Shown: positions 3,538-48,491 of the stretch, piece by piece
How positions within the stretch are numbered: position 1 is the first letter of the stretch
Layout of the letters: every line of letters begins with the position of its first letter
Source: Pontibacter sp. G13
GTDB lineage: Bacteria > Bacteroidota > Bacteroidia > J057
Direction of reading: 5' to 3'
DNA: 64,000 nucleotides
Assembly (NCBI RefSeq): GCF_031851795.1
Contig: NZ_CP134696.1
Span: 434,001-498,000 of the forward strand
Made by a program: the position numbers and the translations under genes
The notes under the pieces: model-generated
The model's input: only the letters and a program-made list of their open reading frames with translations
The model's database searches: none
Told to the model about the DNA's origin: nothing

Positions 3538-4176
3538 TCAAGCAGGCTCTTTCAGCCGCATCCAATCGGGGACCTGAAGATCCCAATAAATCGCACTTGC
3601 TCGGATCAGGAAAGCCAAGGTGACACACCCGAATGCAATCCCCACTTGTTGGTCCGGAAAGAAGGTGAATAGCACCAGATACAACACCACCCCCAAGGTG
3701 AGCGGTACGGCATACAGCTCTTTCTTCATCAGCAGGGTGGGACTTCCTGCCAAGACATCGCGGATCAATCCTCCCCCAATGGCTGTGAGGAGCCCCAAGA
3801 AGACAGGCCCCACTGGCATCGCGAATTTCAGGTCGATGCATTTGTCCGCGCCTTGAATCACAAACATGGACACCCCAATAGCATCGAGGTACAGCATGAG
3901 CCGATAGACGTATTTTTGGGCGACCAATCGGTTGGCATAAAAGGTAATGACACTCGTGATGAGCGCCACCCAAATGTAATTGAGATCATTGGCCCAGAAT
4001 ACAGGTTCATTGAGGATCACGTCCCGCATGGTTCCTCCACCGATAGCTGTAATGATCCCCATCACACAGGCCCCGAATAGGTCGATTCCCTTGGGAATCA
4101 CAGCCAGTACTGCCGTCGCAGCGAAGGCCACCGTACCGGCCATTCCTAAATAATAGATAAAGTCAACCGAGTGCAT
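3538..4176 (-). CDS. TRIC/UPF0126 (YicG-like) membrane channel protein
   Basis: 212 residues, nearly all hydrophobic, with about seven membrane segments. Two homologous halves each carry the glycine-rich signature of the bacterial trimeric intracellular cation channel family: GIITAIGGGTMRDV near residue 42 and GLLTAIGGGLIRDVL near residue 128. Family members are cation (K+) channels in the inner membrane; the bacterial role is not settled. Length is normal for the family (about 200-215). The start ATG at 4176 gives MHSVDFIYYLGMAGTVAF, directly leading into the first membrane helix. No operon partner: the upstream gene is separated by an inverted repeat at 4211-4243. Confidence 0.88.
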   Translation of the reverse strand: MHSVDFIYYLGMAGTVAFAATAVLAVIPKGIDLFGACVMGIITAIGGGTMRDVILNEPVFWANDLNYIWVALITSVITFYANRLVAQKYVYRLMLYLDAIGVSMFVIQGADKCIDLKFAMPVGPVFLGLLTAIGGGLIRDVLAGSPTLLMKKELYAVPLTLGVVLYLVLFTFFPDQQVGIAFGCVTLAFLIRASAIYWDLQVPDWMRLKEPA

Positions 4177-41576: not shown

Positions 41577-41604
41577 AGACATCATTCACGGATCCTCGTG
41601 ACTT

Positions 41605-41705
41605 GATTTATGAAGAATGAGGCGAGAGAACAGGCTCAATGACCCTCATGGCAACCTGCCGCCGGCAACGGTGCCAAATCCTGCCCGAATTGGGAAAGAT
41701 AAATT
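41605..41705 (+). promoter_or_regulatory. SAM-I riboswitch (S-box) aptamer
   Basis: All conserved SAM-I elements appear in order. P1 ATTTAT (41606-41611) pairs with ATAAAT (41699-41704). GAAGAATGAGG opens P2, closed by CCTCATGGCAACC. Between them lies GAGAGAACAGGCTCAATGAC, the Bacteroidota form of the GAGGGA/GGCCC core and K-turn/pseudoknot region. P3 is TGCC/GGCA, then GGTGCCAAATCC and P4 ending GGGAAAGATAA. It should bind S-adenosylmethionine and control the downstream sulfur genes. No intrinsic terminator follows; instead a cysteine-rich leader frame begins 16 nt after P1, so its output may act on that frame's translation or on Rho. Confidence 0.9.
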
Positions 41706-41719
41706 AACGACACATCGTC

Positions 41720-41842
41720 ATGAGCAAAAACGTCCACGAATTCCCCCTCCCCGCCGCGCAGTCTAGCGCTACTTTTTCCACTTACATGTTTACTACCATT
41801 GGCACGGCCAACACGATTTGTTGTTGCTGTTGTTGTTGCTAG
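41720..41842 (+). CDS. Leader peptide ending in seven consecutive cysteines
   Basis: A 40-codon frame starts ATG 41720 (MSKNVHEFPLPAAQ). Its last seven codons, 41819-41839, are TGT TGT TGC TGT TGT TGT TGC, directly before the TAG stop at 41840-41842. An internal ATG at 41786 would give an 18-residue version. Placed between a SAM-I aptamer and cysH, it looks like a cysteine sensor: ribosomes should pause on the Cys run when charged Cys-tRNA is short. Downstream, a hairpin at 41871-41894 (TCAGGGTG with CAC-A-CCTGA) and a C-rich, G-poor stretch (about 41909-41932) are candidate output elements, for example for Rho. There is no U-tailed terminator, so the mechanism is open. Confidence 0.7.
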   Translation: MSKNVHEFPLPAAQSSATFSTYMFTTIGTANTICCCCCCC

Positions 41843-42001: not shown

Positions 42002-42763
42002 ATGGAATCTCATTCCATTGACTACCTCCGAACCTCAACAGCGGACCTTTCTTGGGAAGACCGCCTAGAATGGCTCAGCAGAGAATTTCCGGGCAAGGTC
42101 TGCTTTTCACTGGGATTCGGAAAAGAGGGCATGGTCATCGCAGACGCCATTTTCCGGAAGAACCTTCCGATCCGTGTATTCACCATCGATACCGGACGGC
42201 TTTTTCCGGAGACATACGAGCTGATGGATCTGGTCCGCGCTCGCTACAAGACCCAATTCGAAGTGTACTTTCCGGAAAGCCGTGATGTTGAGCAATATGT
42301 TCGCCAGCATGGGGTAAATGGCTTTTACGAATCTGTGGAAAATCGTCTGAGCTGCTGCGAGATCAGGAAGAAACGACCATTGAAAAGGGCTTTGGAGGGC
42401 GCTGAGATCTGGATTACCGGATTGCGCAAGACCCAGTCTGACTTCAGAAGTCAATTTGAGGAATTCGAATGGAATGAATATCACGGGCTTTTCAAATTCA
42501 ACCCCCTGATCAACTGGTCCAAAGAGGAGGTCGATGAATATCTGGAAACGCACCGCGTTCCGACCAATCGCCTCCACAAATCGGGATTCCCCAGCATAGG
42601 ATGTGCGCCATGTACTCGCGCCATTGTCAAGGGAGAATCGGAACGGGATGGCAGATGGTGGTGGGAAACTTCCCACAAGGAATGTGGCCTTCATTTGGAC
42701 ATCACCCGAGAGGTGAAACAATCCACCTCCACGCCAATCACAAGAATTGTCAAAACCGCATAG
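42002..42763 (+). CDS. cysH: Assimilatory adenylyl-sulfate reductase, Fe-S type CysH
   Basis: 253 residues from ATG 42002, the Met that precedes the conserved part. It has the PAPS-reductase fold with VCFSLGFGKEG (33-43) as PP-loop variant. Cysteine pairs CC (118-119) and CAPC (201-204) bind the [4Fe-4S] cluster that marks the APS-using (bacterial/plant) type, not the cluster-free E. coli PAPS reductase. KECGLH (226-231) holds the catalytic Cys228. It reduces activated sulfate to sulfite with thioredoxin. First structural gene of the sulfur cluster, 159 bp after the poly-Cys leader stop. Sulfate-activating genes (cysD/N) are not in the window. Confidence 0.93.
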   Translation: MESHSIDYLRTSTADLSWEDRLEWLSREFPGKVCFSLGFGKEGMVIADAIFRKNLPIRVFTIDTGRLFPETYELMDLVRARYKTQFEVYFPESRDVEQYVRQHGVNGFYESVENRLSCCEIRKKRPLKRALEGAEIWITGLRKTQSDFRSQFEEFEWNEYHGLFKFNPLINWSKEEVDEYLETHRVPTNRLHKSGFPSIGCAPCTRAIVKGESERDGRWWWETSHKECGLHLDITREVKQSTSTPITRIVKTA

Positions 42764-42779
42764 CGGATAATTTCACAGC

Positions 42780-43196
42780 ATGAAGATTCATTTGAAACGC
42801 ATCAACGACGCCGTCCACTTCGAAGCTACCAACGAGGCCGGGAATACCCTCTCGATCGATGGGTCTCCCAAAGTAGGCGGCCAGAATCTGGGGTTTCGCC
42901 CGATGGAGTCCTTGATTGCGGGCCTTGCAGGCTGTAGCAGCATTGACATCTGCTCCATTTTGTCCAAACAACGTCAAGTGGTCGAGAACTTCGAAGTCGA
43001 TGTCCAAGCGGAAAGAGATCCAGATCATGTTCCTTCACTTTTCACCGATATACACCTACATGTAAAATTGACGGGCGATCTCGACCCCAACAAAGTAGAA
43101 CGAGCCGTCAATCTCTCTTTGGAGAAATACTGTTCTGTAGCCCGGATTTTGGAGAAAACCGCCAAAATCACTTGGAGCCACGAAATCATCCACTAA
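42780..43196 (+). CDS. OsmC/Ohr-family peroxiredoxin-like protein
   Basis: 138 residues. The OsmC fold is shown by LIAGLAGCSSIDICSIL (C52, C58) and LEKYCSVARILEKTAK (C118). C52 and C118 are the two conserved redox cysteines that reduce organic hydroperoxides in OsmC/Ohr proteins. Cytoplasmic. It lies 16 bp after cysH and 25 bp before the MetZ-like gene, clearly within the sulfur operon. A role in handling reactive sulfur or persulfide intermediates is an inference from this position; family members otherwise serve peroxide defence. Confidence 0.9.
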   Translation: MKIHLKRINDAVHFEATNEAGNTLSIDGSPKVGGQNLGFRPMESLIAGLAGCSSIDICSILSKQRQVVENFEVDVQAERDPDHVPSLFTDIHLHVKLTGDLDPNKVERAVNLSLEKYCSVARILEKTAKITWSHEIIH

Positions 43197-43221
43197 TCCA
43201 CCTTCCTTAACACAAACCAAG

Positions 43222-44412
43222 ATGTCCAACAACCCGAAATTCGAAACGCAAGCAATCCGGACCCAATCTGAACGCACCGGAAATCGAGAGCATACCGCTC
43301 CTCTTTACCTGACTTCTTCTTTTCTATTTGACGATGCGGAACAGATGCGCGCTATGTTTGCGGATGAGATTCCGGGCAATCTTTACAGTCGATTCTCCAA
43401 TCCCAACACTACCGAACTCATAGACAAAGTCTGCCTATTGGAAGGCGCAGAATCAGGATATGCCACGGCTACGGGAATGGCGGCAGTTTTCACTACGTTG
43501 GCGGCCCTTTGCAGCAGCGGCGACCATATTTTGGCCTGTCGCTCCGTATTCGGCTCCACACACACCGTACTTACCAAACTACTTCCCAAGTGGAATATCA
43601 CGCATAGCTATGTAGATATCCACGAAACTGACAGTTGGGCAGCGTCCATCCAGCCCAACACCAAATTGTTGTTTGTGGAAACTCCCTCCAACCCTGCCGT
43701 GGATATCCTGGATCTGGAATGGCTCGGAAAATTTGCCGACGAACATGGATTGATTCTGATCGTGGACAATTGCTTTGCCACTCCTTACCTGCAGCAACCG
43801 ATCAAATTCGGTGCACACTTGGTGCTTCACAGCGCCACAAAATACATGGACGGTCAAGGCCGAGTGCTAGGAGGTCTCGTTGTGGGAAAGGAAGAATTGG
43901 TGGACGAAGTGAGATTATTCGCTCGCCACTCAGGGCCTGCACTTTCGCCCTTCAATGCATGGATCTTGAGCAAGAGTATTGAGACATTGGCCCTCCGTAT
44001 GGACCGCCATTGCAGCAATGCCCTCGCATTGGCGGAAAGGCTGGAATCCCATCCAGACGTGGAATTGGTGAAGTATCCCTTCCTTCCAAGCCACCCGCAG
44101 TATGAAGTCGCCAAGAAGCAAATGCGCCAAGGGGGCGGAATCGTCAGTATCGTGGTAAATGGAGGCGTCGATCGCGGCCGAGAATTCCTGAATCAAGTCA
44201 AGGTAGCATCCTTGACCGCCAATCTGGGAGATAGCCGTACCATCGTGACTCACCCTGCTTCCACTACCCATGCCAAGTTGACGGACGACCAAAGAGCCGA
44301 GGTGGGAATCTTACCCGGACTCATCCGAATCTCTGTGGGATTGGAACATGTAGATGACATCATTGCAGATATCGAGCAGGCATTGGCCGCCTCCAAACCC
44401 ATCTTGGCCTAA
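43222..44412 (+). CDS. metZ: PLP-dependent O-succinylhomoserine sulfhydrylase-like enzyme
   Basis: 396 residues of the Cys/Met metabolism PLP family. The Schiff-base lysine is K207 in LVLHSATKYMDGQGRVLGG; the GQGR sequence after it is typical of MetZ-type sulfhydrylases rather than MetB. Other family marks are YSRFSNPNTTELIDKVCLLE (PLP phosphate region), VETPSNPAVDILDL and VDNCFATPYLQ. It probably makes homocysteine from O-succinyl- (or O-acetyl-) homoserine and sulfide, thereby consuming the product of the sulfite reductase encoded downstream. Cystathionine gamma-synthase is the main alternative. A Cys-codon attenuator separates it from the next gene. Confidence 0.88.
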   Translation: MSNNPKFETQAIRTQSERTGNREHTAPLYLTSSFLFDDAEQMRAMFADEIPGNLYSRFSNPNTTELIDKVCLLEGAESGYATATGMAAVFTTLAALCSSGDHILACRSVFGSTHTVLTKLLPKWNITHSYVDIHETDSWAASIQPNTKLLFVETPSNPAVDILDLEWLGKFADEHGLILIVDNCFATPYLQQPIKFGAHLVLHSATKYMDGQGRVLGGLVVGKEELVDEVRLFARHSGPALSPFNAWILSKSIETLALRMDRHCSNALALAERLESHPDVELVKYPFLPSHPQYEVAKKQMRQGGGIVSIVVNGGVDRGREFLNQVKVASLTANLGDSRTIVTHPASTTHAKLTDDQRAEVGILPGLIRISVGLEHVDDIIADIEQALAASKPILA

Positions 44413-44428
44413 TCATGCGAAAGCGCCT

Positions 44429-44518
44429 ATGAAGAATTGGAGACAGACATATATGTGTTGTTGCAAAACGACTTGGTTGAGGATTTCTCGGAAAAGCCTC
44501 TCCTCAACCCGAACCTAA
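44429..44518 (+). CDS. Attenuator leader peptide with Cys-Cys-Cys run
   Basis: A 29-codon frame starts ATG 44429, 16 bp after the metZ stop, and ends TAA 44516-44518. It begins MKNWRQTYMCCCKTTW. Codons 10-12 (44456-44464) are TGT TGT TGC. An internal ATG at 44453 would start directly before the Cys codons (MCCC). The Cys run lies 10 nt before the first strand of the pause hairpin, the spacing needed for a stalled ribosome to cover that strand. The peptide itself has no expected function; its translation is the sensor for the attenuator at 44475-44576. Confidence 0.85.
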   Translation: MKNWRQTYMCCCKTTWLRISRKSLSSTRT

Positions 44519-44576
44519 ATTTGTGTTAAGGTGCGTTTACAGGGGGCTTTTCCGGATACGGAGAAGCCCTTTTTTT
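44475..44576 (+). terminator. Cysteine-responsive transcription attenuator
   Basis: Four RNA segments give mutually exclusive folds. 1:2 is GGTTGAGGA (44475-44483) with TCCTCAACC (44501-44509). 2:3 is CGGAAAAGCC (44489-44498) with GGCTTTTCCG (44545-44554), extendable to 13 pairs with G-U. 3:4 is GGGCTTTTCCG (44544-44554) with CGGAGAAGCCC (44559-44569), 11 pairs around GATA, followed by seven U (44570-44576). This is the trp/his-type arrangement. With Cys-tRNA scarce, the ribosome stalls at 44456-44464 and covers segment 1, so 2:3 forms and transcription goes on. With Cys plentiful, 3:4 terminates. It controls the sulfite reductase, siroheme and ferredoxin genes. Confidence 0.88.
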
Positions 44577-44670
44577 GAAGCATCAAGCACTTGTCAAACT
44601 ACTTTCAAACGGAATTACCCGATATACTCAAGCGCCTAACTACTTCGTTCCCAACCAACTCAAACTGATC

Positions 44671-46776
44671 ATGCAAAGCTTCAGAACAGAAATTGAAAAC
44701 CCCATTGTCCAAAGGGACATTATAGAGCTAGAGCGGAAGATCCGCGAGTTCAAGGAAGGCAAACTCGACGAGGAGAAATTCCGGAGTCTGCGCCTAGCAC
44801 GAGGCGTATATGGCCAACGCCAACCTGGCGTACAGATGATTCGGATCAAACTTCCTTACGGAAAAATGACCGTACGCCAGCTTCGGAGAATTAGTGATGT
44901 GGCAGACGAATATTCCAACGGAAATCTCCATGCCACTACCCGTCAGGATATCCAGATCCACTACGTATCCCTTGACCGCACGCCTGAACTTTGGGCGGAG
45001 CTCGAAAAGGATGAAGTGACGCTTCGCGAGGCATGTGGAAATACCGTGCGCAACGTCACCGCGTCGCCATTGGCCGGAATCGATGCAGAGGAGCCATTTG
45101 ATGTAACTCCCTATGCGCATGCTTTCTTTGCCTACTTCCTCCGGAATCCAGTCTGCCAGGAAATGGGACGAAAATTCAAGGTTTCCTTTTCCTCCAGCCC
45201 TCGCGATACCGCTTTTTCCTTCATGCACGACTTGGGCTTTATCCCCAAAGTGCGGGTAGAAAATGGCCAAGAAGTGCGAGGATTTAAAGTCTTGCTGGGA
45301 GGAGGATTGGGGGCGCAGCCTGCATTGGCACATGTCGTCCATGAATTTCTTCCCACGGATGAATTGATTCCTTTTTCTGAGAGCGTCATCCGGATATTTG
45401 ACCGCCATGGAGAGCGCTCCAAGCGTTTCAAGGCCCGCATGAAATTCCTCGTGAAGAAAATTGGGGTGGACGAACTTTTACGCCTGGCTACCGAGGAGCG
45501 AAAAGCGCTTCCTCATCAGACCTATCCGATCGATGCGGAATCCGTCGATGCGCCACAGCTTCCTGAATTCCAGAAGGCACCGAATGTAGTAATTGAGGAC
45601 CAGCAGGCATTTGAGTTGTGGATGTCCACGAATGTAAAGCCACAAAAGCAGCCGGGGTATTTTGCGATTCAGATCCCCTTGCAGCTTGGCAATATCGACA
45701 CCCAACGTGCACGACAATTGGCTGATCTGGTGGAGGGGTTTGCTGGTGATGATATTCGCGTGACCCCTACTCAAGGGTTGATCCTGCGCTATGCTGTAGA
45801 GGAACACCTTCCCTATCTTTTCCAAGAGTTGTCCAAGTTGGGTCTGGCTGATCCGGGATTCGGAAGTATTGCAGATATCACAGCTTGCCCAGGAACGGAT
45901 ACTTGTAATCTGGCCATTTCCTCCAGTACAGGAATTTCCGTGGCATTGGAGCAGGTCATTCGCAGCGAATACCCTGAACTCCTTCATAATCTCGATCTAT
46001 CTATCAAGATCAGCGGTTGCATGAATGCCTGCGGTCAACACTCAATCGCGGCCATAGGATTTCACGGATCGACCATCAAATCTGGCGATGCCGTGGCTCC
46101 AGCGCTCCAAATCTTGCTGGGAGGAGGAGTACTAGGAGATGGAGAAGCAGCAGTCGCCCAAAAGGTGATCAAGATCCCCACCAAGCGAGGACCAGCCGCT
46201 CTTCGAGTGATTTTGGATGACTACGAAGCGAACGCGCTAGAAGGAGAATATTACGCCCACTATTTCGAGCGTCAAGGGAAAGCCTATTTCTATACCCTCT
46301 TGAAGGAATTGGGCAACAGCAAAAACCTCACGCAGGATGATTATCTCGACTGGGGCCATGAAATTGCTTTTGAACCGGCGATTGGTGTGGGTGAATGTGC
46401 AGGAGTCGTGATTGACTTGGTAGCCACCTTACTGTTCGAGACCCAGGAAAAAATCGATTTGGCACATGAAGCTCTGCAATATGGCTCCTTTTCTGATGCG
46501 ATCTACCATGCATACTCCGCATTTGTGAATGGTGCCAAAGCCATTCTCATTCGCGAAGGCCTAGAAAACAATACGCATGCAGGAATCATCTCAGGTTTTC
46601 AGGAGCATATTGTAGCTACCGGAAAACTGAAGCTTGCCAGTGCATTCCCGACCTTGGTATATGCCATCAAGGAAAATGAACCCTCTGAATCCTTTGCGCA
46701 AGCATACCTCGCATCCTCCGAAGCATTCTTGAAACAACTGGTTGAATTGCACCAAACGCCTAAATCCCATGCGTAA
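44671..46776 (+). CDS. Siroheme sulfite (nitrite) reductase with C-terminal HEPN domain
   Basis: 701 residues from ATG 44671. The longer frame begins inside the attenuator U-tract and is rejected. Two NIR/SIR half-repeats: ferredoxin-like domains at ~50-115 (MIRIKLPYGKMTVRQLRRIS) and ~345-410, with heme-binding halves after each. The coupled siroheme-[4Fe-4S] centre is C406 and C412 (ACPGTDTCNLA) plus C450 and C454 (SGCMNACGQH). It reduces sulfite to sulfide with six electrons, probably from the ferredoxin at 48141. Residues ~590-700 (LAHEALQYGSFSDAIYHAYS) form a HEPN-like helical domain fused to the enzyme. Sulfite rather than nitrite is inferred from cysH, metZ and the Cys attenuator. Confidence 0.9.
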   Translation: MQSFRTEIENPIVQRDIIELERKIREFKEGKLDEEKFRSLRLARGVYGQRQPGVQMIRIKLPYGKMTVRQLRRISDVADEYSNGNLHATTRQDIQIHYVSLDRTPELWAELEKDEVTLREACGNTVRNVTASPLAGIDAEEPFDVTPYAHAFFAYFLRNPVCQEMGRKFKVSFSSSPRDTAFSFMHDLGFIPKVRVENGQEVRGFKVLLGGGLGAQPALAHVVHEFLPTDELIPFSESVIRIFDRHGERSKRFKARMKFLVKKIGVDELLRLATEERKALPHQTYPIDAESVDAPQLPEFQKAPNVVIEDQQAFELWMSTNVKPQKQPGYFAIQIPLQLGNIDTQRARQLADLVEGFAGDDIRVTPTQGLILRYAVEEHLPYLFQELSKLGLADPGFGSIADITACPGTDTCNLAISSSTGISVALEQVIRSEYPELLHNLDLSIKISGCMNACGQHSIAAIGFHGSTIKSGDAVAPALQILLGGGVLGDGEAAVAQKVIKIPTKRGPAALRVILDDYEANALEGEYYAHYFERQGKAYFYTLLKELGNSKNLTQDDYLDWGHEIAFEPAIGVGECAGVVIDLVATLLFETQEKIDLAHEALQYGSFSDAIYHAYSAFVNGAKAILIREGLENNTHAGIISGFQEHIVATGKLKLASAFPTLVYAIKENEPSESFAQAYLASSEAFLKQLVELHQTPKSHA

Positions 46777-47538
46777 ACTTTCCACCACTCCCAAAGTAAG
46801 TCTGGTTGGAGCAGGACCGGGAGATCCTGACTTGATCAGCGTCAAAGGTCTCAAGGCGATCCAACAGGCCGATGTCATTCTCCACGACGCATTGGCGAAT
46901 GACCTATTGCTGGAAGAAGCCAAACCCGAAGCAATCCTCATCTCTGTTGGAAAACGGGCAGGTAAGCACAGATATAGCCAGGCCGAAATTCAGCATTTGA
47001 TGTTGCAGCATGCACTTCAACACGGACACGTAGTTCGCCTCAAGGGAGGAGATCCATTCATTTTTGGACGTGGATACGAGGAACTTTCCTACCTCACTGC
47101 CTTCGATGTGGAGACTGAGGTGATTCCCGGAATCTCTAGTCTTTCGGCTGTCCCCGGTACCAATGGAATCCCACTTACGGCGAGAGGTGTCAACGAAAGT
47201 TTCTGGGCGATCACAGCCACCACTTCATCAGGAGCCTTGTCTGGGGATGTCTATCTTGCAGCTCGAAGTACAGCCACGGTCGTCATCTTTATGGGCATGC
47301 GGAAGCTTGGCGAGATCGTCGAGATCTTCAAGCGCCTAGGCAAGTCCCAAACTCCCATCGCTGTGATTCAGTCGGGTACACTCCCCGAGGAGAATCGGGC
47401 AATTGGAACGATCGACACCATCGAAGCTTTGGTCAAACGAAAACAACTGGGTACCCCAGCACTGATTGTGATTGGAGAAGTAGTAAAGCTACACCCTGAT
47501 CTCTCTCACGAATCAGTGGTAGAATACGGATTAACATC

Positions 47539-47554
<16 letters not shown>
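46769..47554 (+). CDS. cobA: Uroporphyrinogen-III C-methyltransferase (SUMT)
   Basis: 261 residues from ATG 46769, overlapping the sulfite reductase stop by 8 nt. SUMT signatures: VSLVGAGPGDPDLISVKGLK, RLKGGDPFIFGRGYEE and VIPGISSLSAVPG. It methylates uroporphyrinogen III at C2 and C7 with SAM to give precorrin-2, the siroheme precursor. The overlap gives translational coupling with the siroheme enzyme it supplies. It corresponds to the C-terminal half of E. coli CysG; the other half is the next gene. Confidence 0.94.

Positions 47555-48491
<937 letters not shown>

Follow-up and report, generated by a model that had tools for sequence, protein, structure and literature searches.

The segment at positions 44429-44576 of the window, which is the whole 64,000-nucleotide stretch of Pontibacter sp. 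G13 DNA that was analysed, is best read as a cysteine-responsive, ribosome-mediated transcription attenuator in a sulfate-assimilation operon, a reading to which we assign a probability of roughly 85% from the sequence and its comparison with relatives. Under such control, sulfite reductase (SiR) would probably be made only when cysteine is short. The element has the following parts:

44429-44518, forward strand: Cys leader ORF, MKNWRQTYMCCCKTTWLRISRKSLSSTRT plus stop, with the ATG at 44429, the TAA at 44516-44518 and 29 sense codons.
44456-44464, forward strand: the sensor, three adjacent Cys codons (TGT TGT TGC).
44475-44509, forward strand: 1:2 hairpin with arms 44475-44483 and 44501-44509, segment 2 in its loop; its role is doubtful.
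44489-44498, forward strand: segment 2, the 5' half of the antiterminator, a 10-nt perfect complement (duplex z -3.95).
44544-44576, forward strand: intrinsic terminator, an 11-pair stem (44544-44569) and seven T, with segment 3 at 44545-44554.

The coordinates, ORF, Cys codons, pairings and terminator given in the first-pass annotation were all confirmed on the sequence. Segments 2 and 3 (44489-44498 with 44545-44554) form 10 perfect pairs, a match reached in 0 of 2000 dinucleotide shuffles, and the best 2:3 duplex of the window comprised 12 pairs (z -3.95; 0 of 200 shuffles). This pairing excludes the 3:4 terminator helix (44544-44554 with 44559-44569, 11 pairs including one U-G, then seven T), as expected of the antiterminator in a leader-peptide attenuator. 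Other features of this type were likewise present in sequence and folding: a short ORF in which codons for the product amino acid follow one another, an intrinsic terminator ahead of a structural gene and, as the stall site demands, a segment 2 beginning 24 nt 3' of the last Cys codon. The 1:2 pairing (44475-44483 with 44501-44509) has nine perfect pairs, and a perfect stem of equal length arose in 8 of 1000 dinucleotide shuffles of 44466-44543. Folding of 44413-44580 gave z -3.04, with 1 of 200 shuffles equally good; 44466-44543 alone showed no folding beyond that of shuffles (z -0.73). The 44544-44569 hairpin was not listed by a generic terminator scan, probably because its stem runs into the T run in the minimum free energy fold, and it is listed by the terminator scans made for this analysis. 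A known Rfam leader family was rejected, since nothing at the attenuator matched at the gathering score and mir-296 and U7 (E up to 10) lay far under threshold.

The genes surrounding the element are these:

42002-42763, forward strand: cysH (phosphoadenylyl-sulfate reductase).
42780-44412, forward strand: osmC-like gene and metZ (O-succinylhomoserine sulfhydrylase-like).
44671-46776, forward strand: sulfite reductase (NirA/SiR-like hemoprotein), the first gene 3' of the attenuator.
46769-48491, forward strand: uroporphyrinogen-III C-methyltransferase, CysG-N-like siroheme synthase and 4Fe-4S ferredoxin, closely spaced.

The SiR gene product reached none of the NCBIfam cut-offs, and sulfite rather than nitrite is taken as its substrate because of the neighbouring genes. 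The shared strand and the spacing point to a single operon of the SiR, siroheme and ferredoxin genes. The metZ stop lies at 44412 and the leader ATG 16 nt farther on, with no TAnnTTTG, which we take to be the Bacteroidota -7 box, within 60 nt upstream of that ATG. The attenuator therefore most likely lies within an operon made up of cysH, osmC-like, metZ, SiR, uroporphyrinogen-III methyltransferase, siroheme synthase and ferredoxin genes, and its leader would rely on upstream read-through. Between the terminator and SiR, a scan for sigma-70-type promoters, whose consensus is not that of Bacteroidota, listed none.

We infer that the leader is translated, that ribosomes stall on it and that transcription terminates in vivo in response to cysteine. 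When charged Cys-tRNA is scarce, the leader ribosome would stall at 44456-44464, leaving segment 2 (44489-44498), just ahead of the stall, free to pair with segment 3 (44545-44554) as it emerges. With 2:3 formed, the 3:4 terminator could not form and the polymerase would enter the SiR, siroheme and ferredoxin genes. With ample cysteine, the ribosome would pass over segment 2 during the synthesis of segment 3, so that the terminator would form and transcription would stop near 44576.

The arrangement recurs ahead of SiR in relatives. In the class sample, 396 genomes were searched for SiR, 109 had a match and 94 long-match loci were read with their upstream DNA. Under a strict rule (at least three Cys in four codons, in a short ORF ending no more than 130 nt upstream of an intrinsic terminator), Cys leaders were found at 26 of the 46 class-sample loci with a terminator within 500 nt, versus 0.6 expected from shuffles; at the same loci, runs of other residues numbered 5 for Met (0.05 expected), 5 for Thr (1.1) and 4 for Val (0.7). 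In the named set, the strict count was 4 of 25 versus 0.05 expected. A looser rule (CC anywhere, or three Cys in six codons), the strict rule alone being calibrated by shuffles, gave a Cys leader with terminator at 38 of the 94 class-sample loci, in 15 of 25 families, and detected no such pair at the other 56; 11 of these 38 loci carried tandem double leaders. Two tandem Cys leaders, each with its own terminator, were seen ahead of SiR in L006, L148, L132, L009, L005 and others. Among the best 80 of 588 named loci, 12 had a leader-terminator pair, and the named carriers include Christiangramia aestuarii, Mucilaginibacter pankratovii, M. aquatilis, Pedobacter rhizosphaerae, Rhodocytophaga aerolata and Chitinophaga sp. 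When 307 terminators from 95 sources were considered on both strands, all 13 strict hits lay upstream of SiR and on its strand, 12 of them distinct because L001 duplicates the window.

Family f47, whose leaders resemble those of Pedobacter and Mucilaginibacter and which is therefore probably Sphingobacteriaceae, had SiR in 108 of 121 genomes. Eighty-five of its loci were read, and a leader was present in 36, clustered in few genera, by the loosest rule (from two Cys in six codons); two of these hits (G469, G458) start with TTG, and G469 is regarded as spurious. A -7 box lay within 60 nt upstream of the ATG in 39 of 63 leaders versus 36 of 611 control ATGs. Two side observations were made near SiR: a further short Cys-run ORF, MKKFLIKYKYEYCCCCRMCRM, directly 3' of the gene in L112 (about position 3659, plus strand), and an RNase P RNA gene upstream of it in three f18 genomes (L142, L144, L145).

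This recurrence bears on whether the hairpin is an ordinary terminator of the cysH-osmC-metZ transcript, with SiR driven by its own promoter and the Cys codons and complementarity accidental. Its position after metZ would suit that idea, as would the lack of a hairpin in G004 (63% SiR identity), the closest relative whose region upstream of SiR is intact; there metZ abuts SiR and no attenuator is present. Independent families, however, repeat the Cys leader, terminator and antiterminator before SiR, which makes an accident very improbable. No other genome of those sampled carries a homologue of the window attenuator, and a homologous alignment of it was therefore given up. Within the window's own family (13 genomes in the sample), SiR was matched in G000, G001 and G004 only, the match in G001 beginning at a contig end. 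The check on relatives set out in the first-pass annotation came out only half in favour of an attenuator, the adverse case being G004, which keeps the genes and lacks the whole element.

The antiterminator of the proposed attenuator was then sought across 63 leader-terminator pairs at 51 loci (49 from the class sample, 12 named and 2 of L005). Four of 67 rows (L016, L019, the first of L046 and the first of L044) had been dropped before this test for odd spacing or hairpin, and L016, L019 and L046 turned out to have C-terminal poly-Cys leaders. The duplex between the terminator 5' arm and the RNA downstream of a ribosome halted on the last Cys codon had a mean z of -1.79, and it was matched by no more than 10 of 200 shuffles in 27 of the 63 pairs (0 of 200 in the window); the pairs are not independent tests, because many rows are related, and the enrichment was absent in some rows, especially in f47. 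Segment 2 began a median of 16 nt 3' of the last Cys codon in the 63 leaders. It started within 10 nt of the assumed edge of the stalled ribosome in 92% of cases versus 34% in shuffles, and a ribosome at the stop codon would cover at least half of it in 83% (52 of 63) versus 58%.

When eight f47 sequences were aligned, the Cys-Cys codons were invariant and the other residues of the peptide drifted. One 2:3 pair is G-C in six and A-U in two of them, and its segment-3 base is also compensated in 3:4, so that the search for compensatory changes yielded one change compensated in both helices in this family; with two sequences added, the counts became seven and three. The covariation score was reached by 14 of 500 and 61 of 500 shuffles, which makes the controls modest, L084 is misaligned in 3:4, and the change may represent one or two events. 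The central claim of the first-pass annotation, a Cys-codon attenuator controlling SiR, is strongly supported by the 26 of 46 loci versus 0.6, by an enriched and well-placed antiterminator and by this compensatory change.

The same alignment is relevant to what the leaders sense. Met stands next to Cys more often than any other residue (64 of the 123 non-Cys residues directly preceding a Cys and 46 of the 120 directly following one) and flanks the Cys run in about half of the leaders, Met runs are in excess as given above, and in the window an ATG at 44453 stands directly 5' of the Cys run, all of which would agree with joint sensing of Cys and Met in place of cysteine alone. However, translation may alternatively start at some of the Met codons that precede Cys, and Cys-Cys is the invariant part of the f47 alignment; we consider joint sensing possible and rather unlikely. 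That the ORFs encode functional micropeptides for metal or redox purposes, with regulation secondary, might be argued from their dense Cys runs and, in some, their length of 35-54 residues. Yet the peptides vary outside the Cys core even inside one family, and it is the Cys codons, the position of the stop, the terminator and the pairing that are constrained, so that we find a micropeptide function scarcely credible and retain the cysteine attenuator.

In the trp- and his-type attenuators of Proteobacteria, codons for the regulated amino acid are combined with mutually exclusive 2:3 and 3:4 helices, and the element shares both features. The trp-like layout claimed in the first-pass annotation held for the pairings themselves; segment 2 of the 2:3 helix, however, lies in the 1:2 loop and not, as in trp, in one of the arms. 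Nor was a trp-like role of the 1:2 hairpin borne out. Predicted P(1:2) in the window was 0.00-0.06 and 2:3 was favoured with or without a stalled ribosome, so that 1:2 as a general anti-antiterminator was rejected, being disfavoured in every window state modelled. The earlier interpretation as a whole is thus supported in part, in its Cys-attenuator core and not in the function given to 1:2.

Ribosome masking was modelled as the other possible basis of the off state. Across the 63 leaders, the mean predicted P(2:3) before segment 4 exists was 0.44 when no ribosome was present, 0.61 when one was stalled at the last Cys and 0.10 when one stood at the stop codon. In 45 of the 63, a ribosome in this last position blocked 2:3 (difference above 0.3). 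Masking the RNA up to the edge of the stalled ribosome raised P(2:3) by more than 0.3 in only 14, which likewise tells against a trp-like role of 1:2. In these models, the blocking agent in relatives is more likely a ribosome at the leader stop codon. The window behaves otherwise: its segment 2 lies 16-27 nt 5' of the stop and so escapes masking by a ribosome placed there, and P(2:3) was 0.93-0.99 without a ribosome, with one stalled at Cys or with one at the stop (0.97-0.98 in the stop state), and dropped to 0 when the ribosome stood 5 or 9 codons ahead of the stop. The off state in the window would therefore need a ribosome that crosses segment 2 during segment 3 synthesis, or features outside the model. 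Since 2:3 is predicted without a ribosome before segment 4 exists, the untranslated default might be read-through. The full RNA formed the terminator in every case at equilibrium (P 0.99-1.0), so the switch must be kinetic. The element would thus differ from the trp/his type in having no general 1:2 anti-antiterminator, in its amino acid (Cys) and phylum (Bacteroidota), and in a segment 2 placed in or beside the leader ORF, where the ribosome at the stop masks it in most relatives.

As a positive control, hisG was matched in 29 of 60 genomes; of the 29 loci read, 27 had a terminator-like hairpin, and a His-run leader was present in 21 of these 27, including the window's own genome. Leader-peptide attenuation hence looks common in Bacteroidota, and ribosome-mediated attenuation is, on this sequence evidence, probably common there. 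In the window's own genome, the His-run leader before hisG (L247) contains ...VHHVHHHFHHSS and its hairpin is weak (-7.8 kcal/mol).

No strict terminator-linked Cys leader was found before cysH (30 loci read from 43 genomes matched, 10 with a terminator) or before cysK/cbs-family genes (30 loci read, 11 with a terminator), so such leaders were rejected as a device of cysteine genes generally. Poly-Cys leaders are nevertheless present upstream of cysH, without a terminator of this kind, in the window, G004, G304, G122 and three f10 genomes. The f10 cysH loci suggest a translational variant. Their leaders (L184, L185, L186) are poly-Cys with no SAM aptamer at gathering score, and the Cys codons of L184 and L186 are complementary to the start region of cysH, AACAGCAACAAAAATG, those of L185 only in part. 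Sequestering of the next gene's start by poly-Cys codons, as in mycobacteria, was set aside there with z of only -0.5 to -1.1; in 13 other leaders tested, the best complement fell at the start codon in L019 alone (z -1.72).

The head of the operon, at 41605-41842, contains a second arrangement:

41605-41705, forward strand: SAM-I riboswitch aptamer (RF00162), 69.5 bits versus a gathering score of 44.4.
41720-41842, forward strand: second leader ORF, MSKNVHEFPLPAAQSSATFSTYMFTTIGTANTICCCCCCC plus TAG, of 40 codons, at +15 after the aptamer, with seven terminal Cys codons at 41819-41839.

The aptamer P1 is formed by about 41603-41611 and 41699-41707, and control of the whole operon is probably exerted by the riboswitch together with the seven-Cys leader. 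The head is matched in G004, the relative without the inner attenuator, where a SAM aptamer and a leader with seven terminal Cys precede cysH. The composite also stands before SiR in three Pontibacter loci and one Botryobacter locus and before cysH in G304, and all eight recognised SAM aptamers before cysH or SiR in the loci read are accompanied by a poly-Cys ORF.

An RF00162 search of the class covered 149 genomes, 107 with a match, and DNA was read 3' of 90 aptamers, 29 among the best-scoring and 61 hand-chosen, so that the set is not random. A short ORF starting no more than 80 nt after the aptamer with at least three Cys in six codons was present at 14 of the 90; with at least four Cys in six, the count was 13 versus 0.0 expected in shuffles. 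In G122 (L397), the poly-Cys ORF MKKTTTFPSKTTVANAFKFAAACCCCQKFAACCCKC lies before cysH at +113, beyond the 80-nt rule, and the counts keep 14 of 90. This locus presents the SAM aptamer, a T-run hairpin and then the poly-Cys ORF, and its riboswitch may have its own terminator.

With ten aptamers from sulfur-gene loci added, 21 of 100 had a poly-Cys leader. The downstream gene was classed by sequence motif in 92 of the 100 (48 metH, 10 metY-like, 8 other PLP enzymes and 26 other), and one each of metY, osmC-like, cysH and metH was confirmed by family models, the fragments scoring under curated cut-offs except for Pfam OsmC and PAPS_reduct. The leader occurred after the aptamer at none of 48 metH and none of 8 other PLP enzymes, at 8 of 10 metY-like genes and at 6 of 26 others (three cysH, one SiR, one osmC-like and one unassigned); for seven leaders no gene was classed within 700 nt, three of them being the Pontibacter loci before SiR. 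The leader ATG lay at +3 to +20 after the aptamer in 20 of 21. No terminator-like hairpin followed within 170 nt of the leader stop in 17 of 20 composite leaders. Their last Cys falls no more than three codons from the stop, their median length is 38 codons versus 24 in the terminator type, and they are C-rich and G-poor (C-G 0.135, n=20, versus 0.036, n=59; p 0.0006, with rows related). The recurrence, the excess over shuffles, the absence at metH, the lack of a hairpin and the bias of C over G support the composite as real. No SAM aptamer was found at 19 leader-bearing SiR-side loci and the leader-free L129, nor at 20 leader-free loci; the SAM aptamer and the intrinsic Cys leader as alternatives to each other were dropped, since leader-free loci equally lack the aptamer.

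In tnaC, a stalled ribosome shields the RNA from Rho. With SAM bound, leader translation would be shut off, P1 ending a few bases 5' of the leader start codon; with SAM low, the C-rich, G-poor leader would be translated, and scarce Cys-tRNA would cause a stall at its end that shields the RNA from Rho. The separate Cys attenuator, with its intrinsic terminator, would gate the sulfite reductase part a second time. Control of leader translation by SAM is proposed because the ribosome-binding region of SAM-I riboswitches is frequently within P1, as described in PMC2258182. By analogy, we infer SAM-gated translation coupled to a Rho step, and the later step under poly-Cys stalling is probably Rho-dependent. 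A two-input device for Bacteroidota sulfur assimilation, on only when SAM and cysteine are both low, is put forward tentatively, at somewhat less than even odds.

The composite leaders also bear on whether control acts mainly through translation or Rho and not through an intrinsic terminator. The 17 of 20 leaders free of a hairpin, their C-rich, G-poor ORFs and the mycobacterial poly-Cys leaders described as translational (PMC13236596) all lean that way, but the terminator at 44429-44576 is strong and paired with an antiterminator, so we regard such control as improbable and keep to transcription attenuation.

Among known systems, the uORFC-8-2 motif before cysS of Rhodobacterales, for which ribosome-mediated transcription attenuation by Cys-tRNA has been proposed (PMC8632094), resembles the element in its conserved leader ORF, tandem Cys codons and U run, a likeness in description; unlike here, it belongs to Alphaproteobacteria and cysS and has its Cys codons in the first stem. 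The mycobacterial poly-Cys leaderless ORFs (Canestrari 2020) are also short, cysteine-responsive Cys-codon ORFs before cysteine-biosynthesis genes (PMC9094748, PMC13236596), but they are described as acting by translation attenuation, whereas an intrinsic terminator and an antiterminator are found here. The operon-head aptamer exceeds the threshold of the SAM-I family RF00162, and its first downstream ORF is the poly-Cys leader and not the regulated gene. In the SAM-II riboswitch of Sinorhizobium metA, a SAM aptamer is similarly followed by a first AUG and, ahead of the AUG actually used, by a terminator; it differs in being SAM-II and in having in-frame AUGs of one gene, with no amino-acid-specific leader mentioned in the passages that describe it (PMC9373788).

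A 2010 survey stated that leader peptides were known only from Proteobacteria and Actinobacteria and added Firmicutes (PMC2965389). Within Bacteroidota, short ORFs reminiscent of leader peptides were noted in B. thetaiotaomicron (PMC7366714), and leader-peptide attenuation was proposed before amino-acid operons of Flavobacterium psychrophilum, with hisG and pheA elements conserved in the family; the main text of that study mentions no sulfite, and cysteine only for a protease (PMC9723704). Among the matches listed from the open-licence literature there was no Bacteroidota cysteine attenuator, although Lopatovskaya 2010 (cited in PMC4833913) may list Bacteroidetes attenuators, nor any SAM riboswitch coupled to a poly-Cys leader. 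The remark in the first-pass annotation that it was aware of no cysteine attenuator of this type in the phylum therefore stands within that literature; leader-peptide attenuation in general has already been proposed there, in Flavobacterium (PMC9723704).

The observations are best explained by a widespread type of Bacteroidota attenuator, undescribed within the literature searched. A phylum with little known amino-acid control at the mRNA level thereby gains a widespread and testable cysteine sensor, and simple reporters could be used to test how ribosome and polymerase are linked in Bacteroidota. In the SAM aptamer joined to a poly-Cys leader, a riboswitch and a stalling ribosome would together form a natural gate for two metabolites.
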